Positions 34,886 to 56,429 of a DNA stretch of 64,000 nucleotides are shown piece by piece (within the stretch, counting starts at the first letter, position 1; every line of letters starts with the position of its first letter). Under the pieces are notes generated by a model. It made no database searches and was not told where the DNA came from. It saw only the letters and a program-made list of their open reading frames with translations. This DNA is from a virus. The translations under genes and the position numbers were made by a program. Where the stretch lies: IMG/VR virus record IMGVR_UViG_3300028920_000047, positions 1 through 64,000 of that record; one strand, given 5' to 3'.

Positions 34886-36325
34886 CTACTTAGAAAATAA
34901 CCAAGCCAAATCTTCGTTAATAATTCCTTTTCTATTATGGTCGCGTTCATCTTTTTGTTTTTCTAATACCGATTTAAAAGTGTCCAATAATATACGTGGA
35001 TTACTAACCGTATCTACTAAAGCGTTCCAACAAGCACCACAAAAAGCATCCGCCACACCCTTATCACCAATTTCACCTTTAAGATTTTTTTCTGGAGGAT
35101 AAACCTTTCCTTTTTCTGTATCATGTAAAAGGTCTCCAAGTTCCATAACTAATACTTCATAATCATATATATCCACTCTCTCTTCAAGAATACAATCGCG
35201 TAAACTCTTATATTGAACATCATTTCTATCTACAGACAATAACGATGAGGGAATACCACCAAGTACCATTGATTGTATACTTTCCTCCGACTGGAACTGG
35301 TCAAATGTTCCCCTTACTATGTTTACACCTTTTTTTCTTAACCAAAAATAAAATTCTCTAATCTTATAAATAGGTATTTTTGAATCATACGGAGGTCTTA
35401 TTTGAAGAGCAAAATCCAAATATAATCCCGGAGCCTGAATTTCCTTTACTTGACCAGTATCTATATTTACTTTAACTGTGTTTACCATGCCCCGCTTACG
35501 CACCATTGCCATTCCTAATTCATTGCCCGATTTAGATAAATCTGTATGAATATAACGAGCAGCAGTTATATCTTCCAATTTGTTAAAAATAAAATAATCC
35601 TGAATTTTTTGTTGTTTATTTTTATAATCAAGAACCAAATACTCTTTTGTAAAAGGATGAGCTTCATACTCCCGCCTAACTGCTTTACTAACATATGTTC
35701 TTTGTGGTATCAACCTTTTTCTTACACTATGTCTGGCCAGTATCCCCGCCTGGCGCTTTAAAAAAGTTGATAAATCTAATTTTGCTAATCTTTTTAATTC
35801 CACCGGACAGTCGTTTAATATAGCATGACCTTCTCGTACATAAACACTTATATCTTCACCTTTCTCAATTATTTTTGGTGGATGATATTCAGTACCGCAG
35901 GCAATAGTAAACGTTATACCACTATAAGCTTTCCTTTTAATTCGCCATATTGGGTCATTATATATAAGTACGTGCTCCTCGTCTTTTACCATCTCAATAT
36001 AATTATCTAAAAATGAAGCCACATCCTCTTCTACCTGCTGAATCATAAACAATTTACTTATTAAAGGTAAAATACCTTTATCCATAAATCGAGATATAAT
36101 ACGAGAAATAGTTTCGGTATAAACTTTAAAAACCTTAGTTAGTTCAACACGCCTGGTACTAAATTGAGCGGTTTTATTATCCGCTGCTGATAACTCGTCC
36201 AAACAATTATGAACAATTATGTTATGTGGTCCAACATAAAGATGATTACCACCCACATCTTTAACATCATAACTATCCTGAACACCAATACTTTTTATAG
36301 ACTTTATTTTAATTGGTTTTAACAT
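34886..36325 (-). CDS. terL: Large terminase, C-terminal half behind a C-intein
   Basis: 479 residues. Residues 1-40 are a C-intein: MLKPIKIKSIKSIG, Y-D-V-K-D-V-G-G-N-H-L-Y-V (block F) and G-P-H-N-I-I-V-H-N at 32-40 (block G, His-Asn end), followed by Cys41 as the +1 nucleophile. The C-extein opens C-L-D-E-L-S, the end of the Walker B motif with catalytic Glu, and later has a large-terminase RNase-H-like nuclease with acidic residues in H-T-D-L-S-K-S-G-N-E (about 261), T-F-D-Q-F-Q-S-E (about 340) and G-V-A-D-A-F (about 424). Spliced to the N half coded at 56429-55509, it would give a terminase of about 645 residues. Alone it lacks the P-loop. The start overlaps the previous stop (TAATG). Confidence 0.92.
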   Translation of the reverse strand: MLKPIKIKSIKSIGVQDSYDVKDVGGNHLYVGPHNIIVHNCLDELSAADNKTAQFSTRRVELTKVFKVYTETISRIISRFMDKGILPLISKLFMIQQVEEDVASFLDNYIEMVKDEEHVLIYNDPIWRIKRKAYSGITFTIACGTEYHPPKIIEKGEDISVYVREGHAILNDCPVELKRLAKLDLSTFLKRQAGILARHSVRKRLIPQRTYVSKAVRREYEAHPFTKEYLVLDYKNKQQKIQDYFIFNKLEDITAARYIHTDLSKSGNELGMAMVRKRGMVNTVKVNIDTGQVKEIQAPGLYLDFALQIRPPYDSKIPIYKIREFYFWLRKKGVNIVRGTFDQFQSEESIQSMVLGGIPSSLLSVDRNDVQYKSLRDCILEERVDIYDYEVLVMELGDLLHDTEKGKVYPPEKNLKGEIGDKGVADAFCGACWNALVDTVSNPRILLDTFKSVLEKQKDERDHNRKGIINEDLAWLFSK

Positions 36326-36861
36326 TATTTTAAATCATCTCTATTTGAACTTAATAATTTATATAAAACAAATCCTATTATTGTCGATAGAGGAATAAAA
36401 CCAAACGGAAGTAATATTTTCCAGCCGGAAAGAGTATCCATTGTGAAACAAAAAATTGTTAATGATACAATAATACCAAAAATGGTTGAATTAACTAACG
36501 TCTTAGATATATTACCACCAAACGACGATACCCATTGACAAAATTTATTATCTGAAGTTAATCCAAGCATAGTTATAAAACCAAGTATAATACCGGTTAT
36601 TGCACCATAGACAACACCTTCCTTGATTTTCTTATTATCCTCCATTACATAATCCATAACCGCCTTTTTTTCTTGTTGCTTTTCCTGCTGCTTTATAAAA
36701 TTTATAAGTTTATTTAAATCCGCTTGAGATACTTTAGACCAATCATCCTCTACCGCTTCAACAATTTTCTTTAAAGTATCATCTATACCAGACATATCAA
36801 TTGCTTCTAATATAGCTTCCACATCTTCCCGTTTTTCGGTTTTATAAAACTCCTTGTTCAT
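36325..36861 (-). CDS. Membrane protein, candidate holin
   Basis: 178 residues. A charged helical N-terminal half (residues 1-75) precedes three membrane spans: about 81-100 (V-V-Y-G-A-I-T-G-I-I-L-G-F-I-T-M), 121-140 (T-L-V-N-S-T-I-F-G-I-I-V-S-L-T-I-F) and 147-171 (L-L-P-F-G-F-I-P-L-S-T-I-I-G-F-V-L-Y). A small multispan protein near a muramidase-like gene is a holin candidate, although the long soluble N terminus is unusual. It is translationally coupled to the terminase C half. Confidence 0.5.
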   Translation of the reverse strand: MNKEFYKTEKREDVEAILEAIDMSGIDDTLKKIVEAVEDDWSKVSQADLNKLINFIKQQEKQQEKKAVMDYVMEDNKKIKEGVVYGAITGIILGFITMLGLTSDNKFCQWVSSFGGNISKTLVNSTIFGIIVSLTIFCFTMDTLSGWKILLPFGFIPLSTIIGFVLYKLLSSNRDDLK

Positions 36862-37081
36862 CTAACTCTCTCATCTTTCTTAATAAATTTCTTATCAACA
36901 CTTTTAACAAAGCATTTCTTAACTTAAAGTGGGGCTTACCCTTTAACTTTTTTAACTCTACATTACACTCATCCCGAAATGTTTTGTTCTCTCTTGCTAT
37001 ATCAAAACACATTTGTAAATAAGTATCTAATTCAGTATCATTAAATTTTAACTTATCTACAAGTTTATCTACTTTACTCAT
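36842..37081 (-). CDS. Small hypothetical basic protein
   Basis: 79 residues, helical, very basic in its second half (L-K-K-L-K-G-K-P-H-F-K-L-R-N-A-L-L-K-V-L). It overlaps both neighbours by 4 and 20 bases. No family recognised; it belongs to the lysis-region run. Confidence 0.55.
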   Translation of the reverse strand: MSKVDKLVDKLKFNDTELDTYLQMCFDIARENKTFRDECNVELKKLKGKPHFKLRNALLKVLIRNLLRKMRELDEQGVL

Positions 37082-37857
37082 ACTTTATTACCATTTAACT
37101 TCTTTTCTTTAAATTCGTCTTTTTCTTGAATCACTTCTTTAAATTTATCTTCACCAAGTTCCATAGCCATTTTTGACAAATAAAACTGATTTGATAAAGT
37201 TTTAGAAAGCAATTCACTTTGAGTATCCATATACTTCTTTTGCCATTTACGATTACTAATAATAAGTGCTAAACAAATAGTTGATAGTATAGATAGAGCA
37301 GATAAAGCAACTTCGGGATTATTTGTAATAATGTTTCCCTTAGCTTCAAATTTTTGGTTTATCGAATTATCGAAACCGGCAAATAGTTTTGCATTAGCAT
37401 CTACTTTATTACTTACTTCTAAAATATTATCTGACATTGCTTTAAAATCTATTTTAACAAAATTATCAGATAAAGCTTTTACATTAGTCTTTATATCTAA
37501 TACATTATTTGACATTGCTTTTAAATCTAACTTAAATTCGTCAAGTAATTTTATTTTAACATTTAATTCTTTTATCAACTGCATATCGGTTTGAATCTTA
37601 CCAATATTAGCATTCATATTATTCTGGAGCTGAATAAAATTATCCCTTAAATCATTTAACCCTGATTTATTATCATTTACTCCTACCTGAACTTTAAGCA
37701 TAACATCACTAATTTTAACTACATTATCTTTAGTAGCTCTAACATCACTTTTAATCGTCGCCAACGATGGTAAAAGAGAAAAAGAATACCCAAAAGAAAG
37801 GCAAACAAATATATAAAAAATAATTAAAGCAATTACTTGCCAATGAAAAGTACTCAT
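37078..37857 (-). CDS. Two-span membrane protein with long coiled coil
   Basis: 259 residues. A span at about 7-28 (V-I-A-L-I-I-F-Y-I-F-V-C-L-S-F), a long heptad region (about 35-165) with recurring L-K-A-M-S-D-N and L-D-I-K-T-N-V-K-A-L repeats, and a second span at about 178-198 (A-L-S-A-L-S-I-L-S-T-I-C-L-A-L-I-I). This places the coil in the periplasm, as in spanin-like or envelope-linking proteins. Role in lysis is inferred from neighbours only. Confidence 0.5.
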   Translation of the reverse strand: MSTFHWQVIALIIFYIFVCLSFGYSFSLLPSLATIKSDVRATKDNVVKISDVMLKVQVGVNDNKSGLNDLRDNFIQLQNNMNANIGKIQTDMQLIKELNVKIKLLDEFKLDLKAMSNNVLDIKTNVKALSDNFVKIDFKAMSDNILEVSNKVDANAKLFAGFDNSINQKFEAKGNIITNNPEVALSALSILSTICLALIISNRKWQKKYMDTQSELLSKTLSNQFYLSKMAMELGEDKFKEVIQEKDEFKEKKLNGNKV

Positions 37858-38279
37858 TATATGACCTTCTTTTGTTTTAATTCCATATAAACATCTTGAA
37901 TAAAAGTTATAAAATATGATGGCTGTTTAATCTTTTCTTTTAACTCACCCTTCACACCAGTACTAAGAACTTTTAAATCAGCCTTTAATATTTTTCCTAT
38001 CTGAGCAATTAAATCATCTTTTGCACTATCCAATTTTTCAAGACCGTTACCATCTCTCTTATCCCACTCTATAATTATTTTAATCGCCATTTCTTTCAGC
38101 TGCTCTAAATCATCATCAGTTGCTAAATGAAATAATCTTCGAGTCCACACTTTAAAATACTTTTCATAAATATTTTTTACCACTTCTAAAAAATCTTGAA
38201 CCTCAGGTTTCTTATAAAACCTCACAACCCTGACCGGAAAAGCACAAATATTTTTCCACGCCCTCTTAAAAAAATTCAT
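37857..38279 (-). CDS. Hypothetical protein of the lysis region
   Basis: 140 residues, with a basic aromatic start (MNFFKRAWKNICAFPVRVVR) that could sit on a membrane surface, and a helical body. AGGAGGTAGTTAA stands directly before the ATG. The stop overlaps the next start. No family recognised. Confidence 0.5.
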   Translation of the reverse strand: MNFFKRAWKNICAFPVRVVRFYKKPEVQDFLEVVKNIYEKYFKVWTRRLFHLATDDDLEQLKEMAIKIIIEWDKRDGNGLEKLDSAKDDLIAQIGKILKADLKVLSTGVKGELKEKIKQPSYFITFIQDVYMELKQKKVI

Positions 38280-38315
38280 CTTTAACTACCTCCTCTTTTT
38301 ATCAAAAAATCAAAA

Positions 38316-38510
38316 TTATATTTTAACTACCATTCGAATTTTATAATAATTAGCGTTTGTATTATTTGATACATCTCTCAAAAAGGCTAAATGCTCCACA
38401 TCCAGTTTTGTATCCTGAACAAATTTTTCAATAATTTTTTGAATAGCTTTTTCAGATATCTGACGCTTTCTCTGCACCTCTTCAACGGATAAACTTTTTT
38501 CCTTACTCAT
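38316..38510 (-). CDS. Small hypothetical protein
   Basis: 64 residues from the ATG at 38510, selected because TAGGAGG lies 9 bases upstream; longer upstream readings would overlap the lipoprotein gene. The product (MSKEKSLSVEEVQRKRQ at the start, Y-Y-K-I-R-M-V-V-K-I at the end) is charged and helical. No family recognised. Confidence 0.6.
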   Translation of the reverse strand: MSKEKSLSVEEVQRKRQISEKAIQKIIEKFVQDTKLDVEHLAFLRDVSNNTNANYYKIRMVVKI

Positions 38511-38523
38511 AATTTTTAACCTC

Positions 38524-38895
38524 CTATTTATATTTATCTTTTTGATAATAGGTCGGCCACTTATAACCATATCCCCATCTCCAATAAGTAGGCAAAAGCG
38601 GATGACCAAAAATTCTTACACCTATATAATATATTTTAGCGATTATTGGATATCCGGATTTTTCTATATCCTTTTTAAATATTTTATCAGCATATCTTCT
38701 ATCCTTTTTAGAACCACCCTGCCAATATAACCAATCATGTTTTATTCCTGCCCAGGTAAAATTGAAATCAGGAACCAAAGTACACCCGTCGGATTTAAAA
38801 GGTCTTATATGCTCTCTTCTGGTAGGAATATGGGAACAATGGATAAGGAAAAAAAGAAGAAATAAAAATATTATAAAATTACAACTATTTTTCAC
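38524..38895 (-). CDS. Exported PLA2-like-motif protein, possible lipoprotein
   Basis: 123 residues, GTG start seven bases after AGGAGGTAGTTAA. The first 20 residues are a signal peptide ending L-I-H-C; His before Cys is unusual for a lipobox. The mature part has S-D-G-C-T-L-V-P-D, then K-H-D-W-L-Y-W-Q-G-G-S...R-R-Y-A-D-K-I-F and G-V-R-I-F-G...P-T-Y-W-R-W-G-Y-G. This pattern is seen in a family of small bacterial exported proteins and its H-D-x-x-Y-x-x-G...A-D part resembles the phospholipase A2 active site. Function unproven; a lipid-acting lysis helper is one idea. The gap upstream carries the shared promoter-like element. Confidence 0.6.
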   Translation of the reverse strand: MKNSCNFIIFLFLLFFLIHCSHIPTRREHIRPFKSDGCTLVPDFNFTWAGIKHDWLYWQGGSKKDRRYADKIFKKDIEKSGYPIIAKIYYIGVRIFGHPLLPTYWRWGYGYKWPTYYQKDKYK

Positions 38896-38914
38896 TTAAC
38901 TACCTCCTAAAATC

Positions 38915-38990
38915 TTCGATTTAAGCGATTTATACTAATTACCTACATAAAACCATGTATTATATAAAATCTCTTTATAAATCATATATT
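38915..38990 (-). promoter_or_regulatory. Shared upstream element, copy B (candidate late promoter)
   Basis: Second copy of the element at 1244-1320, with the blocks AAATCTCTTTATAAATC and CCTACATAAAACCATGTAT. It ends just before the ribosome site of the exported-protein gene. Two copies in the same relation to a gene start support a regulatory role. Confidence 0.45.
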
Positions 38991-39004
38991 TACACGATTT
39001 TACT

Positions 39005-39035
39005 GGTTATTTTAATGTTAATTTAAAATAAAACC
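39005..39035 (-). terminator. Weak hairpin after the lysozyme-like gene
   Basis: GGTTATTTTAA (39005-39015) pairs with TTAAAATAAAACC (39023-39035) with a two-base bulge. It is AT-rich and lacks a clean T-run, so it is at best a weak terminator before the element at 38915-38990. Confidence 0.25.
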
Positions 39036-39049
39036 AAACTTCTTTATGT

Positions 39050-39652
39050 TTATATCGATTCATTTAACCCTTTTATTTGTATTTCCTGCTGTTCTTTCAA
39101 CAAAGTATGTTTCATTATTTGGAGTAACTGCCAACTATTTCTACAATTATCATCTGCTGCAGATTTTATATAATGATATGCTCGTTGCCCCCTTAATTCT
39201 GGTTTAGATTTATTATAATGATTAGCATAATACTCACCCTGTTCATAAATTGATACTGGTATTATTACAGGAACTTTTAGATAACTTAATCGACAAAATA
39301 ATATTGACCAAAGGGGTGAACCGTCTAATTGATAAGCAACAGTTTCTGTATCTATAAAAAATCTATAATCAATTTTTAGTTCTTTCAACTTATCTTGCCA
39401 ATCAGGCTTTCTTTTAATTCTATTTAATAACTCAGCAATTTCTTCTTTATCATGTTGACATAAACCATGACCTTCAGATATATAACCATCTGGATAATCG
39501 CCTAACTGAGTTTCGGCATAAATAGTTCTAAGAATCATTTCACAAGCATTATCGTTTTCACCATAACCAAACACACCACACACCGCAAAAATACTTTTTA
39601 TAATAAAAATTTCATTTGAACTTCTATCATTTGGTAATAATCCATATCCCAT
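39050..39652 (-). CDS. Lysozyme-fold peptidoglycan hydrolase (probable endolysin)
   Basis: 200 residues. The first half shows M-I-L-R-T-I-Y-A-E-T-Q-L-G-D-Y (about 39-53) and G-H-G-L-C-Q-H-D-K (about 62-70), the E...G-x-G-L-x-Q layout of lytic-transglycosylase/lysozyme folds with Glu in A-E-T as catalytic acid. The second half, L-F-C-R-L-S-Y-L-K-V-P...Y-E-Q-G-E-Y-Y-A-N-H-Y-N, is typical of the phage versions. No signal peptide, so a holin would be needed. It lies among small membrane-protein genes, which supports a lysis role; a virion-associated muramidase is the alternative. Confidence 0.65.
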   Translation of the reverse strand: MGYGLLPNDRSSNEIFIIKSIFAVCGVFGYGENDNACEMILRTIYAETQLGDYPDGYISEGHGLCQHDKEEIAELLNRIKRKPDWQDKLKELKIDYRFFIDTETVAYQLDGSPLWSILFCRLSYLKVPVIIPVSIYEQGEYYANHYNKSKPELRGQRAYHYIKSAADDNCRNSWQLLQIMKHTLLKEQQEIQIKGLNESI

Positions 39653-40173
39653 TATTTTCTCACCCTAACCTCTTTACCTAAATTGTTATAATTTGAATAC
39701 ATTTTTTGAACAGCCGGACAATGTGAAAATAAAGATAAAATTAACACAATCACCAGCCCACTAATAACAAATATTACTCCACGAGAAAAACCTGCTTTAA
39801 AATCTTTAAAAGCACCGAGAGCAGCTGAATCTTCGACCGCTTTAACAACAGATACTCTAAAATCACGAGCAATAAATTCTTTTTGAGGATTATACACTTC
39901 TTTTTTAAAATAAGTTTCTATATCTTTTTGATTCTCTTTTTCACGAATCTTCTCACACTGTGAAGTATGTTCATGAAAAGCAAGATTTTGTTTTTCTAAT
40001 AGTGATTCTTTAAGATACTCACCTAAATTATTTATCGATTTTTCCACATTTTGTATTGATTCTTTAATAGTCACTTCAAGATGTTCAATTTTTTTACTAA
40101 TCTCATCCTTAGCTTCTTTTACTTTTTTATCTACAATTTCTATCACTTCTGACCTTAAAACATTTTCTGGCAT
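39652..40173 (-). CDS. Tail-anchored coiled-coil membrane protein
   Basis: 173 residues. A charged coiled coil (about 10-75), then a single membrane span near the C terminus (about 130-150: G-V-I-F-V-I-S-G-L-V-I-V-L-I-L-S-L-F) and a short basic tail. The stop overlaps the start of the lysozyme-like gene (TAATG). This shape fits a holin or antiholin-like partner, but no family is recognised. Confidence 0.5.
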   Translation of the reverse strand: MPENVLRSEVIEIVDKKVKEAKDEISKKIEHLEVTIKESIQNVEKSINNLGEYLKESLLEKQNLAFHEHTSQCEKIREKENQKDIETYFKKEVYNPQKEFIARDFRVSVVKAVEDSAALGAFKDFKAGFSRGVIFVISGLVIVLILSLFSHCPAVQKMYSNYNNLGKEVRVRK

Positions 40174-40216
40174 ATTCTACAGCTCCTTAATAATTATTAT
40201 TAGTAAGTATTATCTT

Positions 40217-42322
40217 TTAGTAATCCGCCTTTAATTTACTAACAAACTGTGGCCAGGTGTATTTTGTATTGGCGCCATAGGTTTTATTCATCATTTCTCG
40301 TTTTGTTGAGGTTGCTGTTATTCCCAAACCTGAATTTATGGGTGAAGAAAGAATTCGCCTAACCACTGCGGCTGATGGAACATTTGTTATTGTATCTGGC
40401 ACAGTTACAGTTGAATAATTAACCGTTATAGTATCGGCTGTTTCCAATCCCATTTCAACCATACTACCAAAATATACAGAAATACTATCACCCAATCCGT
40501 TTAAGGAAGTCGTTCCTGACCAAACTGCACCAGCAGTAGGATATGACTGAAAAACCATATTATTAAAAATTACAATCACATCTCTACCATTTTGAGCGGT
40601 AGAAGTTCCACCAATGGTTATTATTGATATATTTGTATCGTGATTATCTGGGGGATAAGTTATTGCAATAGACAGATATTTGACTGTTATTGAATCTTTT
40701 GCAATATTATCTCCATCGAAAAAAACAACTAAAACACTATCATAATAATCATTCAAACTTGCTGTGCCAGACCAAGCGTTTGAACTGATATTCACAGAAT
40801 CGTTATATACCCAACCCATACCGTTTTCGCCAACATATATGCCAATTGAGTCATAATCGTCTGCGTTTGTAGTAGTTCCGCCGATATGTATTAAAACTAT
40901 TTCTGTTTCGTGATTGTCGTCTGGATATGTAATACTCATTGCTATATAAGTAACACCAATAGTGTCATAAGCGATATTAGTTCCATCATAGAATTTTACC
41001 ATAATAGAATCTGCACCAGTCAGACTTGCAGTTCCACTCCAAGCATCACTTGAAACTTCAACTGTATCTTGATATACTCCATTGACATATATTCCAACGC
41101 TATCGTGGTCGGTAGCGTCTGTTGTTACACCATCAATTTTTATCAGTTTTTGTGTTGTGTCGTGGTTATCAGCAGGGTGTGAAAATGATATAGTCGGAAC
41201 AGATGGAGAAGGATATTGACCATTAAAAAAAAGAGTAAAAAACGAATCGCCGGTCGCATCAAAACCAACAGTATCACTACCAGTTACCAAAGGCACTGTT
41301 TCAGCACTATCGCAGTTCGGCTCTAATAAATCCGTTCCTGATTCCCTTGCAAAAAGATTAAGTCCAACAGGGTCGCCCGTAATATTATACACCACATTGT
41401 CCGTATCATTATAATATATATCTTGTCCATTGTCTTGATTAATATAATAATCATCAAAATATGAATTTCTAATATAATTAGATTTAATTTGCGAATTATA
41501 ATCTTTTTCATCGTGTTCATTAAGCCACGAACCTGCCGAATAACAGCTATCAAACACATTTGAATCGCAAGCACCAGCACCAGTAAAAAATATGTTTGCA
41601 TACCACGAAGTCGTGCCAGTAACCTTTATATTATATACATAATTGTTCCGAAAATATGATGTATCACTTGTATCGTTATCATAGAGAAAAATGTTCCCGC
41701 GAGTATTTTTAAACACAGTAATAAAATTATAAGTAAAAACTGATTTTTTACCAAACCAATCCCCATAAGTACTACCACCATTAAATCGCATAAATCCTAT
41801 AAATCCAGTTGAATCACTTGTAGCAGAGTATATTACTTGGTTTGAGCCTGAATTTTGTTTTAACCTGCCTCCATTAGAAATAAAAATAACCGGTTTTTCG
41901 ATAGTCAGTCGTGAACTGATATAATAACTATCACCAATAAATGTCGAATAATCAAAAGTTCCAAATTTGATACACCACACAACGATTTGAGTTCCGTCAG
42001 CAGGGACAGTATCATCAGCATAGTCATAAGCATAGGGAATTGATTTAAGCGGAGCAGGCGGAGTTGCTTGATTAGAATTGTTATTTGCGTCATTGCCGGC
42101 TGCAAATGTAAGTGATGTATCAACCATAGTATATTCGCCACAGGTGCAGTTCATAGATAAGTCGGCAAAATCAACATTAACAAGAGGGAAAGCACAAGTT
42201 GTTTCACTTCCGCCATTAACAACTATTCTATACAATTTTTGCCCGTTGACATATATTGTATCCCACGCATATATATTTGACAAAAACAGCAACATAAATA
42301 ATATAGATATTATAATTCTCAT
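40217..42322 (-). CDS. Exported beta-helix protein with Ig-like repeats, copy A
   Basis: 701 residues from the ATG at 42322, chosen for the GAGG site in the end of the previous gene. Signal peptide about 1-19 (MRIIISILFMLLFLSNIYAW). The first 360 residues have the short repeated strands of a right-handed beta-helix (Y-I-S-S-R-L-T-I-E-K-P-V-I-F-I-S; Y-F-R-N-N-Y-V-Y-N-I), as in tail spikes and pectate-lyase folds. Three Ig-like repeats of the D-N-H-D-T type follow, then a short C-terminal tail. The N-terminal 430 residues are nearly identical to those of copy B (46530). Fibre- or spike-like protein, but exported: may act on or be shown at the host surface. Confidence 0.7.
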   Translation of the reverse strand: MRIIISILFMLLFLSNIYAWDTIYVNGQKLYRIVVNGGSETTCAFPLVNVDFADLSMNCTCGEYTMVDTSLTFAAGNDANNNSNQATPPAPLKSIPYAYDYADDTVPADGTQIVVWCIKFGTFDYSTFIGDSYYISSRLTIEKPVIFISNGGRLKQNSGSNQVIYSATSDSTGFIGFMRFNGGSTYGDWFGKKSVFTYNFITVFKNTRGNIFLYDNDTSDTSYFRNNYVYNIKVTGTTSWYANIFFTGAGACDSNVFDSCYSAGSWLNEHDEKDYNSQIKSNYIRNSYFDDYYINQDNGQDIYYNDTDNVVYNITGDPVGLNLFARESGTDLLEPNCDSAETVPLVTGSDTVGFDATGDSFFTLFFNGQYPSPSVPTISFSHPADNHDTTQKLIKIDGVTTDATDHDSVGIYVNGVYQDTVEVSSDAWSGTASLTGADSIMVKFYDGTNIAYDTIGVTYIAMSITYPDDNHETEIVLIHIGGTTTNADDYDSIGIYVGENGMGWVYNDSVNISSNAWSGTASLNDYYDSVLVVFFDGDNIAKDSITVKYLSIAITYPPDNHDTNISIITIGGTSTAQNGRDVIVIFNNMVFQSYPTAGAVWSGTTSLNGLGDSISVYFGSMVEMGLETADTITVNYSTVTVPDTITNVPSAAVVRRILSSPINSGLGITATSTKREMMNKTYGANTKYTWPQFVSKLKADY

Positions 42323-42323
42323 T

Positions 42324-42689
42324 TTATTTTTCCTCAAAGGTTACTAAATTTCCAGTTGCAATTCCACCAATAATTATATATCGAAAATGCCATTGTATCT
42401 TAAATGGAAACTCATCACATTCAATTATCTTTTTTGTCGGTATTTTTGTTCTGATATATCCAGGCCGAAATTGAAAATTGTCTTTACAGGCATAATATAC
42501 TATGTCGGAATCGTTTGTCGTTGAATATACATACAATTCGCTATCGGCAGTTACAATTTCAAACAATATATCAACCGAATTGGAATCGCTGATTATCCAA
42601 CTATCGCCAGTAACATTATCCACAACATAGTTGTCCGCAAAACAAACCGAACACATAAGTAATAGTATCAAAAAAACAATCATTCTCAT
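42324..42689 (-). CDS. Small exported protein, copy A
   Basis: 121 residues with a Sec signal peptide (MRMIVFLILLLMCSVCFA, cut before D-N-Y-V-V). The mature part is a small beta domain: D-N-V-T-G-D-S-W, V-D-I-L-F-E-I-V-T-A-D-S-E-L-Y-V-Y-S, then I-I-E-C-D-E-F-P-F-K-I-Q-W-H. It is about 90 percent identical to the copy at 46900. Its stop leads straight into the beta-helix protein start, so the two are made together; it may be a partner or chaperone of that protein. Confidence 0.7.
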   Translation of the reverse strand: MRMIVFLILLLMCSVCFADNYVVDNVTGDSWIISDSNSVDILFEIVTADSELYVYSTTNDSDIVYYACKDNFQFRPGYIRTKIPTKKIIECDEFPFKIQWHFRYIIIGGIATGNLVTFEEK

Positions 42690-42790
42690 TACTTATCACC
42701 TAACCAAAATTTTTGTGGAATGACATACATCAGCAATATTACAATCACCGCAAATAACGTAATTACTATTTCATCAATTATCTTTCTCAT
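42689..42790 (-). CDS. 33-residue membrane peptide
   Basis: An ATG overlapping the stop of the 482-residue gene (TAATG), and its own stop overlapping the next start in the same way. The product (MRKIIDEIVITLFAVIVILL at the start) is one membrane span with a short tail. No equivalent lies at this place in unit 1 of the duplication; a similar peptide follows the giant repeat protein at 48679. Coupling on both sides makes a chance ORF unlikely. Confidence 0.6.
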   Translation of the reverse strand: MRKIIDEIVITLFAVIVILLMYVIPQKFWLGDK

Positions 42791-46530: not shown

Positions 46531-46531
46531 T

Positions 46532-46900: not shown

Positions 46901-48538
46901 TTATTTTTCTCGTCCTCTTAACTTTATTGTATTAGCCGCATAATCTTGAATTGGTGACATAACATAATAACAATTTTTCCACTCTACAACAGTTACTCCA
47001 AAAACAGGCTCAGTTATCCACACACCCTCAAAAGGTTCAGTATCACCTAATACCCAATTAACTGCTAATAACTCATAATCTACATTAGAAATACAAAAAC
47101 TATCAGCAGTAGTAAAAGTATCGGTATAAGCACAGGAATCAAAAGCTGTATTATAAATCCAAGTATCATTTGTTGGAAATATTTTACAATAAACATTATT
47201 AGTAAAGGTAGCAGAATCAGCAAATATATCTTCTGTTAAATATAATGACCGCCATTGATAAATTCCGGAACCACCAGTACCGCCTAAATCTAATTCTCCA
47301 GTATACTCATCAGTTGGAGCTAACCCTAAAACACCCGCAGTAAATATTGTAGAATCACAATGAGCAAAATGAAACTGAACTCCGGAACCATTATGAAGCC
47401 ATATTCTACCCTGAGTATCCCCATCTATTCCTTGTGGGTCAGCCTGAAAAATTAACTCATTAGATTCATACCCACTTGAAGTCTGTATTTTAACATTATT
47501 GCCATATACATGAATTTTTTCATCTGGTAACAAAGTACCAAACCCAACATAACCGTTTATACCCTCCATAAAAAAATTTGTTTGTCCACCAGAATTTGTA
47601 AAAGGTAATCCACCAGCAAGGCGGCAATTAAAAGCTAAATCTACAAATAAAGTCTCTCCCACTAAAGCATTTGAATCAATATCCAAATTATTAAAATCAC
47701 CTTGACCGGTTACGTCTAAATCACCTATAACATTTAAACTTCCTGCCATAGTATCTTCTTCGTAATTCCTCACAAAAGAATCTGATAAACCAACTATATA
47801 ATATCTACTAATATAAGATACCCTTAATATTTCACCGGTATCAGGAACATACCCTCCGTGGAAAGTTATCTCACTATCTCCACTTTCATAATAATCTACA
47901 CCAATAACTTTAATAACTCCATCAATAGTAACAATAGTTGAACTATCCTCCCAGACATCTAAAGGGTCTGTTAATTCAAATATAGTATCAAAACCATTAG
48001 CAGTATCAGAAAACTCCTGATTAACTTTCATTTGCCCTGTAAAAAAAGTATCAAAAGAAGCACCCGAAACACCTGTTAATAAAGAACCATCGCCAACAAA
48101 AGCATTCGCATATACTGTATTTGTAAATGTTGCCGAATCCGCTTTTAGCTCCTGAGTAAGACTACAACTGCCTGTTGAAATTATTCCACCAACGGTTAAA
48201 GTATCAGTTGTTATTGTCCCTGTATTATCTATTTCTTCAGAATATATTTTAGTGGATATTATTACTGTACCACTAATAACTAATGTTCCTGATATATTTT
48301 CACTTTCAATAGAACCAGCGGTTAAAGTACCTCCAACTTCTAATTCTGTTCCAACAATTCCCGAATCTACTCTTATCCTTCCGGTTGAGGGATTATCCTT
48401 GACTTTTTCAATTTCCTGTTTATTTTGGGAAATTTTACCATCCTGGTCATAATTATAAGTAGTACCTTCAAAAAATCCATCAGCGTAAGAATAACCCAAC
48501 AAAAAAGCAATCAATAATAATACAATTATATATTTCAT
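46901..48538 (-). CDS. Exported fibre-like protein, copy B
   Basis: 545 residues; signal peptide MKYIIVLLLIAFLLGYSYA. Contains T-F-T-N-T-V-Y-A-N-A-F-V-G-D-G-S-L-L-T-G-V, a domain with F-E-L-T-D-P-L-D-V-W and G-D-S-E-I-T-F-H-G-G-Y-V-P (about 180-235), a collagen-less beta-rich core with G-Y-V-G-F-G-T-L-L-P-D-E-K-I-H-V and the same S-G-I-Y-Q-W-R-S-L-Y-L phrase as copy A. Its end shares the pattern N-T-I-K-L-R-G. The ATG has a TAGGAG site. Confidence 0.65.
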   Translation of the reverse strand: MKYIIVLLLIAFLLGYSYADGFFEGTTYNYDQDGKISQNKQEIEKVKDNPSTGRIRVDSGIVGTELEVGGTLTAGSIESENISGTLVISGTVIISTKIYSEEIDNTGTITTDTLTVGGIISTGSCSLTQELKADSATFTNTVYANAFVGDGSLLTGVSGASFDTFFTGQMKVNQEFSDTANGFDTIFELTDPLDVWEDSSTIVTIDGVIKVIGVDYYESGDSEITFHGGYVPDTGEILRVSYISRYYIVGLSDSFVRNYEEDTMAGSLNVIGDLDVTGQGDFNNLDIDSNALVGETLFVDLAFNCRLAGGLPFTNSGGQTNFFMEGINGYVGFGTLLPDEKIHVYGNNVKIQTSSGYESNELIFQADPQGIDGDTQGRIWLHNGSGVQFHFAHCDSTIFTAGVLGLAPTDEYTGELDLGGTGGSGIYQWRSLYLTEDIFADSATFTNNVYCKIFPTNDTWIYNTAFDSCAYTDTFTTADSFCISNVDYELLAVNWVLGDTEPFEGVWITEPVFGVTVVEWKNCYYVMSPIQDYAANTIKLRGREK

Positions 48539-48562
48539 TTCTATTCTCCTAATACCAATAAT

Positions 48563-48679
48563 TTATCTTAATCTATTAACAAATTTTACAAATCCTTTTA
48601 TTAATAAATATGTGACACCAATGCCACCTATAAATACCGCTACTAAAATTCCTACTATTAATAGACATTTTAAAAACAT
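48563..48679 (-). CDS. 38-residue membrane peptide
   Basis: ATG overlapping the stop of the giant repeat gene (TAATG). The product (MFLKCLLIVGILVAVFIGGI then G-V-T-Y-L-L-I-K-G-F) is a single membrane span with a basic end. Same arrangement as the 33-residue peptide at 42790. Function unknown; a membrane anchor or pore for the upstream exported protein is possible. Confidence 0.6.
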   Translation of the reverse strand: MFLKCLLIVGILVAVFIGGIGVTYLLIKGFVKFVNRLR

Positions 48680-51600
48680 TAGGGTACTGTATAATATACT
48701 TTCTCTATTTCATCAACCCGCCCATCTGAACAAGCGGAACCATTCACTCCAAATCTTTCTATAATTATAGTATATACTGCTGTTTTAGCAATATATATTC
48801 TATGAGTAGTCCGAACATTTATCAATATTGAATCACTACCCGCTGAATTAGTGGCGTAACTCAATATTTGGGAATCATATACTTCATACAAACCACTATC
48901 ATACAAATCCTCCATAACTGCCGATAATTGAGCAATAGTGGAATCATTAAAAGCATGAATATCAACAACAACAATTGCTGGATATGTATTCCCTTTACCA
49001 TCCCAGTATGCTTGTAAAACCTTATTCTGAACAATTCTTTCCATGTAAGGTTTTGGATAGGTTGTTAATCGTGGATTACCACTAAAGTTAACAGTTATGC
49101 TATCATAAGCAACCTGGCCGAACTGGTCAATTAGTTTTACAATAACACTATCACCCTTACCTTCCAAATTGGCATACCCTATCCAGGAGCCACTATCACT
49201 AACAACATTAGTTGATGAAGATAAAACACTATTAACATATATTTGAACTGTATCTCCCAACCTTGTGTTCCTTGTAGTTCCCATTATTATAATTCTTGAT
49301 ACTATTGTGTCGTGAGAATTGGTATCTGGATATGTTATGGAAATATAAGACGGCGGTAATACATAACTAAATGTAATTGTATCATATACCTTTGAATCGT
49401 ATCTATTATATAATTTTACCCACACACTATCTCCAATCCCGTTTAATTGAAAAGTGCCGGACCAATTTTCATTATTTTCTGTCAAAATTATTGTATCGTT
49501 AATATTAGAGTTTACAAATATTAACAAAGTATCCCCAGCTATACTATAGTTTGAAGTTCCAAAAATAGTACCCGAATCTACATTTGTATCATTATTATCA
49601 ATCATACTGGTTATAACAATTTCCGGATTATTAGCAAAACAATTTACCGTAATCGTGTCCTGAACTACTTGTCCAAACTGATTAACCAATTTTGTACTAA
49701 CACTGTCGCCATAAGAACTAACATAAACCGTTCCATTCCAATTATCACTATCCGCAGAGATTGTATATTTGCTATTCAAAACATTATTTACATAAATATA
49801 AACAGTATCAACATTTGCAACTGTTTGACAAGTTGTACCACCAATGATAATTATATTTGTATTAGTATCATGATTATCAACCGGATAAGTTATTTCTAAC
49901 GATAAGGTCTCAGATAAATAATGTAATTGAATAGTGTCATTATATAAATTATTATTAAAAGAATTAGCAAGTTTAGCAACCACTATCGGATATGGTGTAC
50001 CGGCTATATAACAAGTTCCTGAAAAACTACCGCTATCAGAAGTTAAAATAATATTAGTATTCATAGTTCCAGTATAATCAAATATTTGAACGGTATCTCC
50101 TACTTTCGAATTTTCTGTTGTACCTGATATAGTTATAACAGATATATTTGTATCATGCCCGGTATCTGGGGACATTATAGCCATTGTAAATACCGGATAA
50201 TAACTTATAGTAATAGTATCATAATAACTTGTTTTATATAAAACACTTTCCAATTTTACAGTTACACTATCCCCCTTAGAAACTACAACAACAGTTCCAG
50301 ACCAGCTCATTGAATCAGACACAACATAAACTGTTGTATTCAAAATATTATTTACATAAATCGATATAGTATCTCCAAGCTGTGACCATTCGGTTGTCCC
50401 GTTTATCCAGTTCATACTAATATTAGTATCAGTATTAACATTACCAGGAATACCTATAGAAATAGTAGGTGTTGCATAATAACTAATTGTTACCGTATTT
50501 CCTACAGTTCTCCCAAACTGGTCTTCCAGTGTTACAGAAATACTATCACTACCGCCAACAACCACTGTTCCAGACCAGGTTCCACTATCTGTTAATATAT
50601 GAGTGATAGAATTAGTTAACCCATTAACACGTAAAACTATTGTATCACCGTTCCGAGAGTTTACGGTTGTTCCGTGAATAGTATTTATAGATATCTTAGT
50701 ATCTGTATTATTAGAAGGATAACTTATCCTCGCCAATATAGTACCATAATAATCAACAGTTATCGTATCATAAATAACTGAACCGGTTAACGCTGTTACT
50801 AATTTGACCGAAACATTATTACTTGTTTCGGATAAAGCCGCTGTCCCTGAAAAGGATTGATTATAATAAGTAATTGCCGCATAAGTGTTTAAAACATTAT
50901 CCACATAAATATAAATTGTATCACCTAACATAGTGTTTTTAGTGGTACAAATAACATTTATAATTTGTATATTTGTATCATGGTTATTTGGAAAATTAGT
51001 AATAACAACAGATGGTGCACCAATATAATTTATAGTTATAGTATCATACACATCAGAATCAAAATTAGTTAATCTTGCTAATATACTATCACCTATATTA
51101 GTTAGAGAAACGGTACCAGACCAGGAACCCGTATCAGCTGTCAAAGTATATGAAGAATTTAAAATACCATTAACATATAAACGTACCCTATCCCCAACTT
51201 TTGAGCTCTTCGAAGTCCCATAAATTGTTATAACTTTAACACAAGTATCATAAGCAGTAGCTGGCGTATCTATACCCACACCAGGATTGGTTTGATATTT
51301 ATTAACAGTTATTGTATCGTATAAAATATTCCCGAAAGAATCATGTAAAACAACCCACAAACTATCACCTTTTGAGGAAACACCGGCTGTACCTGACCAG
51401 TTTGCATTATCTGAAACAATCACAACAGTAGTATTTAAATTTGTATTCGTATATATTTCCACAGTATCGCCCGCCTTAGTAGGACTGGCAATTCCTCCAA
51501 TAATAAAAAAGCTGTTATTAGTATCATGATTATCAGCCGGTACAGTTATTTGTATTGTGGGTATCGAGTAATAATTGATTGTTCTTGTTTCATAATATAC

Positions 51601-54600
51601 CCTGCCAAAACTATCCTCCAATTTTACTACTAAGCTATCACCAATACCTACAAATATTATTGGTGTATCAACCCAATTACCAGAATCCCCAACAATTCTT
51701 GCAGTTGCCTGTAAAATAGTATTTACATATATTCTAACTAAATCCGAATCCCTGGTATTATAGGAAGTACCTGAAATAACATTCTTCTGTATATTAGTAT
51801 CTGTCGGATTGGATAAATTTATTCCGATATTAGGAGTCCCAAAGTAATTTATGGATATTGTATCATATGCTGTTCTATTATATGTATCATGTAGAATAGC
51901 AACGATACTATCATTGTAACCACTAATAGCTACTGTACCTGACCAGGTGCCACTATCCCCGGTTAAAAGATAAACTGTACTTCTTGTATACATATTTGTA
52001 ATTTCAACAGTATCCCCACCATGACATTCAACCGTAGTTCCAGATATTGTTATTGTTGATAAATAGGTATCATGGTTATTAGCCGGTGATGTAATAGCAA
52101 TATCAGGAGTCTTAAAATAATCTATAACAATTGTATCATAAGTGTTTCTTCCAAATTGGTCATGTAATTTTACCACCAGATTACTACCATAATCACTAAA
52201 GGCAGCAGTACCGAAAAAATTTCCATTTAGACTTGTTATAATAACAGTAGTATTTAAAACATTATTAACAAATATTTCAACAGTATCATTCACCTGAACA
52301 TCGTAAGAAGTCCCTCCTATATTTATTATAGAGATATATGTATCATGATTGTCCGCAGGATAAGTAATAGTTAAAACGGGATTAGCAAAGTAATTAATTG
52401 TTATTGTATCATAAGCAACAGAGTCACCGCCATGATTGGTATCTACTCCTATATATGGTTCCATTTTTAGCCACAATTTATCAGCCTGGCCGGTTAGAGT
52501 GGCGGTACCATTAAAAGTTCCTGTTTCATTCGTAGTTACAAACGATGTACATAAGCTTGAATTTACATATAAATATATGGTATCATTAGAGCTATTACCG
52601 ACCCAATCAATATTTACGTTAGATATAGAGTCACTATTGGTATCAGTATTATTAGTTATATTAGTAATACCGGCCCAATGTAGAAAAACAGAAATTGTAT
52701 CATACAAAATTGAGTCAAACCTCGTTTCTAATTTTACCCACACACTATCGGACATATTACTAAGAGCTACAGTACAACCCCAACTACCACTATCAGCAGT
52801 TAAATTTGTTTGTGTCTGGTAACTACTTCCAACATATATTTTTATAGTATCACCAATAGAAGTATTATAAGTGGTCCCAATAAAAGTAGGAGACTTAGTA
52901 TTAGTATCATATTCATCAATCATACTAAAACTAATTTGCGGTTGTGCAAAATATCCAACAGAAATAGTATCATATTGAATATTACCACTATCGGTTAAGA
53001 TTTTTACCCACACCCGACTATTACCGTGCTGTAAACTAACAGTACCAGAAAAATTACCACTATCCGAAAGTAACACAAATAAACAATTAAACTGGGTATC
53101 ACAATAGATATAAACAGTATCACCAGCATAAGTATTATAAGTAGTCCCAGATACATTAGCAATTTTTGTATTTGTATCAGTCCCATCACTCGGACTTGTG
53201 ATTTGTACTTCAACATAACTAACATTTATAGTATCATACCCATTTCGACCAAACTGGTCATGAACCTCAACAGTAATTGAATCATATCTATTTGTAATGT
53301 AAGCAGTGCCGGAAAAATTATTATCATATCCTGAAATAACAGCAATGGAGTTTAAAACATTATTTACATATATAACTACAGTGTCGCCACTACTGGTACC
53401 CACCGTTGTTCCGGTAATAAGATTAGTTTTTAAATTTGTATCAGAATTATGTTCGGGAACAATAATACCAGCCAAAGGGGTATCAATAAAATTTAAAACT
53501 ATTGTATCATAAGCTCGAGCATTAAATTGATTATACATTATCACCCATACCGAATCACCAAGATTGGATATATAAGCGGTTCCTGAAAAATTACCAGAAT
53601 CAGAAGCCAAAACGACTGTGGTATTAACTGTAGTATTCGTATATATAACCACAGTATCTCCGGTTTTACTACCATAAGTGGTACCATTGATTGTTATTAT
53701 ATTCACTATAGTATCATGATTATTACTGGGTTCATTTATTTGTACATTAGCTATTCCCCAATATTTTATTGTAATAGTATCATATACTTTTACTCCAAAT
53801 TGGTCAATCAATATTACCATAACACTATCCCCTACCTGGCTAAATAGAGAAACAGTACCAGACCAATTTTGAGAATCAGCGGTTATAGTAAATATATCAG
53901 TACTATCACCAGCACTGTTATAAATGTATACATAGGAACCAAGCCCTACTTCAGCAGTTGTCCCTCCTATATTTACTATGTTAATATTTGTATCGTGATT
54001 ATTTGTTGGATAACTAATACCAATTGAAGGTGTGTTATAATAATTAACAACGTTAGTATCGGTCGCCGTTCTACCAAACTGGTCATGTAGAACTACCCAA
54101 ACACTATCATTTAGATTTGATACCGAAACAGTACCGGCCCAGGAACCATTATAACCTGAAACGATAACCGTTGTGCAATATGTAGCGTTTGTATATATAA
54201 CAACAGTATCATTAGTGATAGCATGAGTAACAGAGCCCCCTATATTTATTATACCAGTATTTGTGTCATGATTATTTCCAGGATAGTTTATAGTTATTGT
54301 TGGAGTACTAAAATAATTTACTGTTATAGTGTCCCGAGCTGTACCGGAATAACCATTAAAAATAACTATTACCGATTCACCATAATTTGATACACACGCC
54401 GTACCTGACCAATTACCGGTATCATCTACTATAACAATAGTTGTATTTAATCCTACATCAGTATATATTTGAATCGTATCTCCGGCCTGGGCGTCATTAG
54501 TGGTTCCATAAATAGTAAATATTTGAATATCAGTATCTGAATTATTAGCAGGTAGGGTAATATTGATACCAGGATTTCCCCAATAATCAATAGTTATAGT

Positions 54601-55191
54601 ATCCTGGGCCACATCCCCAAAAACACTTTCTAATAAAACTGAAACAGATTCTCCCCGGCTATTTAAAGCAGCTGTTCCACACCACGACGGGCTGTCGATA
54701 TCTAACGTAAAATAAATAGAGGTACAAATAGCACCATCAACATAAACATGAATATGACTACCGGTACCACAATTAGCTGTAGTACCACCTATAATAACAA
54801 TAGAAACATTTGTATCATGATTATCAAGAGGATATGTTATAGCAACACCAATAGAAGAAGTATCATAATAGTCAACATGAATAGTATCATAACCAATCAA
54901 TATACCATCATAGAATCTGGTAACAATTATGTTACCAATACCAGTTAAAGCGGCAGTACCTGAAAAAGAACTATCAGCCGCGATACTATTACTTGATTGC
55001 AAAATATTATTAGTATAAATATGAACAGAATCACCTATATCATAAACACTATTAGCGGTTCCTTGTATAGTAATTACCCTAACATTAGTATCATGATTAT
55101 CCACAGGTGAGGTTATAGTTACCGTATCCGCGAAAATCTGGTAAATAAAAAAAGCAAAAAACAATAATAATAAAATAACAATTTTTTTCAT
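48679..55191 (-). CDS. Giant exported protein with 22 Ig-like repeats
   Basis: 2170 residues. A signal peptide (MKKIVILLLLFFAFFIYQIF, cut after A-D-T) is followed by 22 repeats of about 92 residues, each with I-x-Y/S-P-x-x-N-H-D-T-N near its start, G-D-T-V-x-I-Y-x-N and N-W-S-G-T in the middle, and Y-D-T-I-T-V-N-Y at its end, a beta-sandwich (Ig-like) pattern; the same repeat occurs in the beta-helix proteins. A unique C-terminal domain of about 130 residues follows (V-V-V-D-I-H-A-F-N-D-S-T; S-A-C-S-D-G-R-V-D-E). Such rods bind sugars or span distance from a surface. Being exported, it may be a host-surface adhesin or masking layer rather than a tail fibre. The repeats vary so no close DNA-level tandem copy is seen. 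Confidence 0.75.
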   Translation of the reverse strand: MKKIVILLLLFFAFFIYQIFADTVTITSPVDNHDTNVRVITIQGTANSVYDIGDSVHIYTNNILQSSNSIAADSSFSGTAALTGIGNIIVTRFYDGILIGYDTIHVDYYDTSSIGVAITYPLDNHDTNVSIVIIGGTTANCGTGSHIHVYVDGAICTSIYFTLDIDSPSWCGTAALNSRGESVSVLLESVFGDVAQDTITIDYWGNPGINITLPANNSDTDIQIFTIYGTTNDAQAGDTIQIYTDVGLNTTIVIVDDTGNWSGTACVSNYGESVIVIFNGYSGTARDTITVNYFSTPTITINYPGNNHDTNTGIINIGGSVTHAITNDTVVIYTNATYCTTVIVSGYNGSWAGTVSVSNLNDSVWVVLHDQFGRTATDTNVVNYYNTPSIGISYPTNNHDTNINIVNIGGTTAEVGLGSYVYIYNSAGDSTDIFTITADSQNWSGTVSLFSQVGDSVMVILIDQFGVKVYDTITIKYWGIANVQINEPSNNHDTIVNIITINGTTYGSKTGDTVVIYTNTTVNTTVVLASDSGNFSGTAYISNLGDSVWVIMYNQFNARAYDTIVLNFIDTPLAGIIVPEHNSDTNLKTNLITGTTVGTSSGDTVVIYVNNVLNSIAVISGYDNNFSGTAYITNRYDSITVEVHDQFGRNGYDTINVSYVEVQITSPSDGTDTNTKIANVSGTTYNTYAGDTVYIYCDTQFNCLFVLLSDSGNFSGTVSLQHGNSRVWVKILTDSGNIQYDTISVGYFAQPQISFSMIDEYDTNTKSPTFIGTTYNTSIGDTIKIYVGSSYQTQTNLTADSGSWGCTVALSNMSDSVWVKLETRFDSILYDTISVFLHWAGITNITNNTDTNSDSISNVNIDWVGNSSNDTIYLYVNSSLCTSFVTTNETGTFNGTATLTGQADKLWLKMEPYIGVDTNHGGDSVAYDTITINYFANPVLTITYPADNHDTYISIINIGGTSYDVQVNDTVEIFVNNVLNTTVIITSLNGNFFGTAAFSDYGSNLVVKLHDQFGRNTYDTIVIDYFKTPDIAITSPANNHDTYLSTITISGTTVECHGGDTVEITNMYTRSTVYLLTGDSGTWSGTVAISGYNDSIVAILHDTYNRTAYDTISINYFGTPNIGINLSNPTDTNIQKNVISGTSYNTRDSDLVRIYVNTILQATARIVGDSGNWVDTPIIFVGIGDSLVVKLEDSFGRVYYETRTINYYSIPTIQITVPADNHDTNNSFFIIGGIASPTKAGDTVEIYTNTNLNTTVVIVSDNANWSGTAGVSSKGDSLWVVLHDSFGNILYDTITVNKYQTNPGVGIDTPATAYDTCVKVITIYGTSKSSKVGDRVRLYVNGILNSSYTLTADTGSWSGTVSLTNIGDSILARLTNFDSDVYDTITINYIGAPSVVITNFPNNHDTNIQIINVICTTKNTMLGDTIYIYVDNVLNTYAAITYYNQSFSGTAALSETSNNVSVKLVTALTGSVIYDTITVDYYGTILARISYPSNNTDTKISINTIHGTTVNSRNGDTIVLRVNGLTNSITHILTDSGTWSGTVVVGGSDSISVTLEDQFGRTVGNTVTISYYATPTISIGIPGNVNTDTNISMNWINGTTEWSQLGDTISIYVNNILNTTVYVVSDSMSWSGTVVVVSKGDSVTVKLESVLYKTSYYDTITISYYPVFTMAIMSPDTGHDTNISVITISGTTENSKVGDTVQIFDYTGTMNTNIILTSDSGSFSGTCYIAGTPYPIVVAKLANSFNNNLYNDTIQLHYLSETLSLEITYPVDNHDTNTNIIIIGGTTCQTVANVDTVYIYVNNVLNSKYTISADSDNWNGTVYVSSYGDSVSTKLVNQFGQVVQDTITVNCFANNPEIVITSMIDNNDTNVDSGTIFGTSNYSIAGDTLLIFVNSNINDTIILTENNENWSGTFQLNGIGDSVWVKLYNRYDSKVYDTITFSYVLPPSYISITYPDTNSHDTIVSRIIIMGTTRNTRLGDTVQIYVNSVLSSSTNVVSDSGSWIGYANLEGKGDSVIVKLIDQFGQVAYDSITVNFSGNPRLTTYPKPYMERIVQNKVLQAYWDGKGNTYPAIVVVDIHAFNDSTIAQLSAVMEDLYDSGLYEVYDSQILSYATNSAGSDSILINVRTTHRIYIAKTAVYTIIIERFGVNGSACSDGRVDEIEKVYYTVP

Positions 55192-55208
55192 CTTATAATA
55201 TCCTCCTA

Positions 55209-55505
55209 TTAAGATAAAGCATCATACGCATCATACAATATGGTTAATTCGGCGGCTTCTAAAGTCTTACCCAAGATAGTAACATGCCCGGAAACAAATC
55301 CGGTTTCACTATCTAATAAATAACCAATAGTGACACAATCAACATCACCGGTTCCACCACTATCAATAATATCCTGCATTTTACATAATTTTAAAACCGA
55401 AGTATAACCATTATCATCCAACACTCTATATTCAGCATCATATCCTTTGTCGAAAAATTTTAACAACTCAAAATTTTGAGGTACTGTAATAGGATTTGCA
55501 GCCAT
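55209..55505 (-). CDS. Small hypothetical protein
   Basis: 98 residues (MAANPITVPQNFELLKFFDK at start), acidic, with beta-like core G-Y-L-L-D-S-E-T-G-F-V-S-G-H-V-T-I. No signal peptide. It lies between the terminase N half and the giant exported protein. No family recognised. Confidence 0.6.
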   Translation of the reverse strand: MAANPITVPQNFELLKFFDKGYDAEYRVLDDNGYTSVLKLCKMQDIIDSGGTGDVDCVTIGYLLDSETGFVSGHVTILGKTLEAAELTILYDAYDALS

Positions 55506-55508
55506 TTT

Positions 55509-56429
55509 TTAATTTGCCTCCTCAATTTTTTCTAATAAATATTCTCTTTCTAAATCTATATCTAACAATTTTCTTACACACTGTCTTCCGGTTTCCTGGT
55601 TTTCAATTAAAAATCGCTGGTCACCGGAAGCCTTAAAAGTTTTATTATTTTCTAATCTAACCTCGAACATTTCTTTTCTACCAGTTTTTACGACTTCAGA
55701 TAAAACTATATCTTCATCTTTGTTATAAATAGAAATATAACAACCAATCTTATCCCCAATTCTAAACTCCTCATTATTAGTATCTTTAAAAACAGTATCT
55801 GCAGTCCAACACCCAGCAATAACATCGTCGCCCTGCTGGCCTAATCCCTTCATAAAAGAAGAACCAACTCCAAAAGTAGTATAAGGCATTTCTAACCACT
55901 CATCTTTTGTACCACGTATTCTTCCTATTTCTCGAAACCAGGGAGATTTTAACATAATTTCATTTAATTTTCCCCAATGACCAGATTCTGATAAATTCTT
56001 TTTAATACTAAATAAAAACAGTAACAACTTTTTACCTTCTATAAAATCAAAATAGTCATGTGGATTTTTTAAACAGTGAATATAATAGTCGATATAAAGT
56101 AAACATAAATCAGCAAGATTTGATTTACCAATACCGATTGGTCCGGAAAGAATTATTTCGCATTTTTTAGGAGAGGAAAAAATTTCCTGGAAAGCATCAA
56201 GCCAATAACTATATATTTTACCAGCTGCACCGCGTTCACGACTATATGTACTTCTACCTATATAATCTTTATGTTTAACAAAAGTAAGCACATCTACAGG
56301 AATTTCCCAAAAGTCCAAAGCATAAAGATTTTTATAAAGAGTTTTGTCACCGTTAAGAATTTGTTTTAAAGCTTGACTTTCGTCAACGCTCAAATCTATA
56401 TTTTTTAACATTTTATAGAACTTATCCAC
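55509..56429 (-). CDS. terL: Large terminase, N-terminal half ending in an N-intein
   Basis: 306 residues (GTG at 56429; an ATG at 56411 after AAGGTGG is an alternative start). Residues 1-206 are the N-extein with the terminase P-loop S-G-P-I-G-I-G-K-S-N (about 95-104) and end G-D-D-V-I-A-G. Cys207 begins an intein N domain of 100 residues: C-W-T-A-D-T-V-F (block A), G-D-K-I-G-C-Y, F-E-V-R-L-E-N-N, and A-S-G-D-Q-R-F-L-I as block B. Block B normally has T-x-x-H; here it reads S-G-D-Q (codon CAG, confirmed by reading the DNA). The frame then stops. The C half is at 36325-34886. The hydrophobic strand V-I-A-G plus C-L-D-E from the other half rebuilds Walker B. Confidence 0.92.
   Translation of the reverse strand: MDKFYKMLKNIDLSVDESQALKQILNGDKTLYKNLYALDFWEIPVDVLTFVKHKDYIGRSTYSRERGAAGKIYSYWLDAFQEIFSSPKKCEIILSGPIGIGKSNLADLCLLYIDYYIHCLKNPHDYFDFIEGKKLLLFLFSIKKNLSESGHWGKLNEIMLKSPWFREIGRIRGTKDEWLEMPYTTFGVGSSFMKGLGQQGDDVIAGCWTADTVFKDTNNEEFRIGDKIGCYISIYNKDEDIVLSEVVKTGRKEMFEVRLENNKTFKASGDQRFLIENQETGRQCVRKLLDIDLEREYLLEKIEEAN

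Follow-up and report, generated by a model that had tools for sequence, protein, structure and literature searches.

A phage large-terminase gene split within Walker B by a split intein, with its halves 19 kb apart and its products most likely joined by protein trans-splicing

Two distant frames encode one large terminase

We analyzed a 64,000-nt window (positions 1 to 64,000) of IMG/VR record IMGVR_UViG_3300028920_000047, a metagenomic virus whose full record spans 106.6 kb. Two open frames on its − strand, separated by 19,183 bases, carry the parts of a large terminase (TerL). The N-half frame (56429-55509, 306 residues) encodes a P-loop protein up to Gly206 and then a 100-residue N-intein starting at Cys207; its start codon is ambiguous, being either the GTG at 56429 or an ATG further downstream. 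The C-half frame (36325-34886, 479 residues) starts with a 40-residue C-intein ending in IIVHN, followed by Cys41-LDELS. Joining the two at VIAG and CLDE rebuilds the Walker B motif in a 645-residue protein. The features of the locus, with the evidence for each, are as follows.

55812..56429, − strand: TerL N-extein, residues 1-206, the N-terminal part of the packaging ATPase, ending GDDVIAG (tblastn, related contigs, Foldseek)
56121..56144, − strand: Walker A/P-loop GPIGIGKS, residues 96-103 (invariant residues in the alignment)
55512..55811, − strand: N-intein, 100 residues, from Cys1 of block A to the end of the N-half frame (N-intein profile; tblastn to phage PM2)
55617..55628, − strand: intein block B, S-G-D-Q (Ser62 and Gln65 of the intein; intein alignment)
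36326..55508, − strand: interval between the halves, with a 98-aa gene, a 2170-aa Ig-like repeat protein, two copies of a three-gene fibre-like set, probable lysis genes, and small membrane proteins (ORF list, Pfam/PHROGs, repeats)
36206..36325, − strand: C-intein, 40 residues, blocks F and G, ending IIVHN (C-intein profile; joined intein versus PF14890)
34889..36205, − strand: TerL C-extein, frame residues 41-479, with Cys+1, Walker B LDE, the remaining ATPase, and the nuclease domain (tblastn, Foldseek)
33207..34862, − strand: portal protein, directly after the TerL C-half (Pfam Portal_T4, 1.8e-37)
29278..30729, − strand: prohead protease (PHROG 207, 2e-30; Pfam Peptidase_S77, 3e-11)
27660..29174, − strand: major capsid protein, Gp23-like (Pfam Gp23, 5e-33)

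A first-pass annotation, made from the letters alone, had proposed a terL gene split within Walker B by a split intein with its halves 19 kb apart, and the frames, profiles, and homology bear this out. Its reading of the C-half (a 40-residue C-intein ending V-H-N, then Cys41-L-D-E-L-S) agrees with our frame check, and its reading of the N-half (P-loop, then N-intein from Cys207) stands with two additions, namely, a noncanonical block B and the uncertain start. A search for an intact terL elsewhere in the 106.6-kb record, the finding that would have overturned the proposal, recovered a single N copy and a single C copy and no complete gene.

In tblastn searches, the C-half matched the annotated TerLs of phages SP-15 and LIS04 (E = 1e-47 to 6e-49) and the N-half matched the N-terminal parts of phage TerLs. 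One alignment spans the split region in 84 of 86 related IMG/VR loci, nearly all of which read on to the Walker B Asp-Glu, with two (L072 and L082) entering an intein. Since about 80 related contigs carry terL as a single continuous frame past the split point, as the first-pass annotation had suggested looking for, we take the N-half and C-half to be parts of one protein. In an 18-sequence alignment, G96, G99, G101, and K102 of the P-loop are invariant. On the C-half side, D43-E44 in Walker B and D262, D342, and D426 in the nuclease are invariant as well; thus, both the P-loop/Walker B ATPase motifs and an RNase H-like nuclease domain with its acidic residues are present. AlphaFold models of the halves, which are of moderate confidence and in which both intein parts have pLDDT values of <50, were compared with known structures by Foldseek. 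The best matches of the N-half model were HK97 TerL (probability 1.00, E = 5e-3) and T4 gp17 (0.84), and the C-half model matched the TerLs of HK97, D6E, and G20c (probability 1.00), with the G20c and D6E matches covering the terminase nuclease.

The joined 645-aa protein had no TerL profile match in Pfam or PHROGs, on account of which we consider this terminase divergent, and neither separate half had one in NCBIfam; profile recognition, however, is a test of recognition and not a property that defines TerL. Of the comparison with profile models that had been suggested at the outset, the intein part succeeded, and the TerL part gave no match even though the tblastn evidence is strong. A PDB sequence search with the TerL alignment did not place a terminase among its matches, no close relatives of either half, and none with this intein, were found in IMG/VR, and none of TerL were confirmed in GTDB genomes. 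The branch leading to the window in the terminase tree is long, and its placement is unsure. Such terminases escape standard profiles and may be scored as missing or incomplete in genome annotation.

Intein halves with a noncanonical block B

We built N- and C-intein profiles from seven other split inteins, excluding that of the window (Npu DnaE being one of the seven), and ranked 117 ORFs against them. The N-half ranked first with the N-intein profile (E = 2.4e-5; next best, 0.004) and the C-half ranked first with the C-intein profile (E = 1.1e-4; next best, 0.18), the latter match stopping exactly at Cys41. When joined, the intein matched Pfam Intein_splicing (PF14890) over residues 32 to 140, across the join, with an E value of 4.6e-6, the 27 bits being below the curated cutoff of 35.8 bits; taken singly, the N-half reached 0.041 and the C-half had no intein match. 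Matches of the joined intein to DnaB and Npu DnaE entries in the PDB also cross the join but are weak (E = 0.013 to 0.08). A search of the genome for a further intein with PF14890 recovered the N-half alone. The third-position base composition of the N-intein resembles that of the flanking exteins, as expected for a sequence kept as coding.

The ends are those of a class 1 split intein, with Cys207 as Cys1, the terminal VHN, and Cys41 as Cys+1, and block F Asp and His, the penultimate His, and Asn140 are likewise kept. Block B, in contrast, reads S-G-D-Q in place of T-x-x-H, so that both its Thr and its His are replaced. In an alignment with seven other TerL/DnaE inteins and that of PM2, the canonical T-x-x-H is found elsewhere (T-D-N-H in L072) and S-x-x-Q in none. 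The residue at −1 is Gly. In the Ssp DnaB intein, the His73Ala variant with Gly at −1 did not splice above background, and the known natural inteins that lack the block B His have Leu at −1 (PMC6333167). As such natural inteins exist, the homology of the terL ends to inteins stands; with the block B His missing, however, splicing is less certain than the first-pass annotation assumed.

Replacement of Thr and His in combination with Gly at −1 would fit a reading in which splicing has been lost, the TerL halves act as a noncovalent pair, and the intein halves serve merely as a docking clamp. We regard this as unlikely, given that Cys1, the block F residues, the penultimate His, Asn140, and Cys+1 have all been retained and that an unspliced chain end would sit inside Walker B beside the catalytic Asp-Glu. 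Trans-splicing of the halves is likely, a judgment that we infer mainly from the fact that an essential motor would otherwise be broken at its active site. Another reading, which we consider rather doubtful, is that the intein, despite a block B devoid of Thr and His and a Gly at −1, may splice via an undescribed mode of initiation; TerL assembly might then be slow or conditional, with its rate or trigger helping to set the onset of packaging. A natural intein that lacks the usual catalytic His and Thr allows one to ask directly how far the splicing mechanism can vary.

Split terL genes in other phages

A split intein in the TerL Walker B motif is also present in Bacillus phage SP-15, Listeria phage LIS04, and Streptococcus phage GXN1 and in three contigs (L072, L082, and L085). 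All six are interrupted at IF/C (the slash marks the junction), and their Asp-Glu pair begins at +5. The TerLs of the three named phages belong to the same clade as that of the window, and their inteins are of comparable size (roughly 100 plus 43 to 46 residues) but form one family with the canonical T-x-x-H and lie at IF/CxxxDE rather than VIAG/CxDE; with its Asp at +3, the junction VIAG/CLDE of the window is two residues downstream of theirs. The IF/C inteins mostly match one another at 1e-5 to 1e-65, whereas the best match of the window intein to this family was 26% identity (E = 0.002, L085), not detectably closer than its match to Npu DnaE. As the window intein is thus not detectably closer to the IF/C inteins than to others, a separate insertion is suggested, and a second independent entry of an intein into Walker B looks like the simplest reading of the sequences; alternatively, it may be a drifted descendant of the IF/C intein.

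The distance between halves varies among these genes. Most of the split relatives have adjacent halves. Those of L072 are consecutive, 16 to 20 bases apart, and those of L085 have an endonuclease-like ORF between them, with a frame break in the C-half. In GXN1, an isolate with a deposited complete genome (PQ819873.1), the terL pieces lie at 61208-62146 and from about 122577 onward (L006 and L004), about 60 kb apart. The site is uninterrupted in L087 and L013, so the IF/C insertion is present in some relatives and absent in others, and split rows are scattered among unsplit ones in the terminase tree. Side observations on these loci include a second intein in the nuclease domain of GXN1 TerL (HPPNS/C), where L013 has an intein inside one frame, and, in L082 (8362-11104), a pair of nonidentical C-terminal terL pieces, one after the other, that flank a GIY-YIG-like ORF and of which the first is truncated.

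GXN1 also bears on the possibility of an assembly artifact, whereby the window halves would derive from two phages or misassembly would have broken up an intact terL. The arrangement is known from a single metagenomic record in which no terminal repeats were found, and no near relative confirms its order. Nevertheless, each half has exactly one partner, the junction is exact, the base composition is even, and the intein sequence at both ends is not something that a misassembled intact gene would yield; with a wide separation also seen in an isolate, we consider an artifact very improbable.

Further interruptions were noted in two of the phages. LIS04 terL (L002, 1251-4925) has an extra, intron-like interruption, with an endonuclease ORF before the intein, and SP-15 terL (L044, 5931-11176) is broken, again in an intron-like manner, close to the P-loop and at a second place that carries a resolvase-like gene. 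In phage ICP1, terL is interrupted by an intron and joined by splicing of its RNA (PMC10448857), unlike the intein case here. These cases lend some color to the idea that a split intron joins the window halves as RNA. However, both ends are intein sequence, and searches for Rfam introns in the window and in the LIS04, SP-15, and GXN1 loci gave no match at the gathering threshold, which leaves joining by RNA exceedingly improbable.

Naturally split inteins in large terminases have been described before: AceL-TerL, GOS-TerL, and Cat-TerL were shown to splice in trans (PMC11766414). They are set apart by the lengths of their parts, being atypically split with N parts of 25 to 37 residues (PMC11766414), versus 100 plus 40 here. 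The TerL1-e intein of mycobacteriophages likewise lies in the Walker B motif of TerL, but in one polypeptide and unsplit (PMC5050341). The nearest intein that we found is that of the fractured helicase of Proteus phage PM2 (36% over the N part; E = 7e-3, tblastn). It is also a split intein, with the canonical split near a catalytic motif, right after D-E (NDE/CHLATG), but an endonuclease-like ORF lies between its adjacent halves, versus 19 kb of late genes here. Fractured genes, as reportedly defined by Dassa and colleagues in 2009, are broken at a split intein, with a homing endonuclease between adjacent halves. The terL of the window shares the break at a split intein and departs from the remainder of this description; no endonuclease was recognized by Pfam or PHROGs among the scanned ORFs of the 19-kb interval.

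The first-pass annotation had held a trans-spliced terminase broken at its active site to be singular. With SP-15, LIS04, and GXN1 alike and split TerL inteins published, it is less so than claimed: the kind of arrangement is known, and it is the wide separation and the odd intein chemistry that are unusual. No published description of the SP-15, LIS04, or GXN1 terL split was found in the literature, nor was a paper on a terL with distant intein halves, within incomplete literature coverage. The window adds to the terL genes in public records that are broken at Walker B by seemingly at least two unrelated split inteins, with halves from 16 to 20 bases (L072) to about 60 kb (GXN1) apart. These distances suggest that, once the intein is split, structural genes can separate the gene for an essential viral motor.

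Gene order and the 19-kb interval

Late genes run on the − strand from 56429 downward and early genes on the + strand from 56848. The TerL N-half is the first late gene; the C-half, on the same strand, begins where a small membrane protein gene stops, and the portal, protease, and capsid genes come next. The same terL-portal-protease-capsid order occurs in L014 behind an intact terL, from which we conclude that the C-half has kept its ancestral place. Accordingly, either the fibre/lysis block entered between the halves or the N-half moved. The latter is slightly favored because fibre-like genes precede an intact terL in L012, where they lie just upstream. No shared DNA of ≥13 bases, as a mark of insertion, was found near the two break points.

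The interval genes had been described as surface, fibre, and lysis genes. Ig-like repeat and fibre-like proteins and probable lysis genes are indeed encoded there, but the names are weak, and only the terminase, portal, protease, and capsid are firmly named. Within the interval, the three-gene fibre-like set occurs twice on the − strand (40217-48538), about 4.2 kb apart, with copies of its largest gene up to 98% alike in parts. Several large late proteins (40217-55191, − strand), including the 2170-residue Ig-like repeat protein, have signal-peptide-like starts, which is unusual for phage structural proteins.

It had been suggested that the split could act as a timing or assembly check, i.e., that expression of the two ends of the 20-kb late segment is a prerequisite for TerL formation and so times packaging. 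The N-half is indeed the first gene of the late strand, with the C-half about 19 kb later, and an intact ATPase site requires spliced TerL. Yet the halves share one strand without a sign of separate control in simple scans (promoter-like sites are frequent throughout this AT-rich DNA), the halves adjoin in most split relatives, which are broken at nearly the same site, and some related contigs lack an intein altogether. We therefore find such a device quite improbable. That adjacent, distant, and absent versions occur among relatives points to a tolerated mobile insertion and not to a checkpoint.

The reading that we consider very likely is a fractured gene for the large terminase, with protein trans-splicing as the most likely means of joining its two products and the split probably a tolerated scar of a mobile element. 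An intein would have entered the Walker B codons and then split; the N-half leads the late strand, and 19 kb on, the C-half retains its usual place before the genes for portal, protease, and capsid. The N- and C-half proteins would be synthesized as separate products and brought together by their intein parts. Cys1 and Cys+1 would serve in the acyl shift and transfer, Asn140 would cyclize, and a 645-residue TerL containing V-I-A-G-C-L-D-E would be released. The sequence itself establishes the frames, their homology, the single copies, the junction motifs, and the conserved gene order behind the C-half; how the halves came to lie 19 kb apart, and that the split does not serve regulation, we infer.

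Two further features lie near the head of the late strand. Between the early- and late-strand genes, some 200 bases ahead of the TerL N-half, the − strand has a perfect hairpin followed by a T run (56636-56661). On the + strand, at 57495-59288, a 597-residue protein has a long acidic Glu/Asp repeat tract inside.
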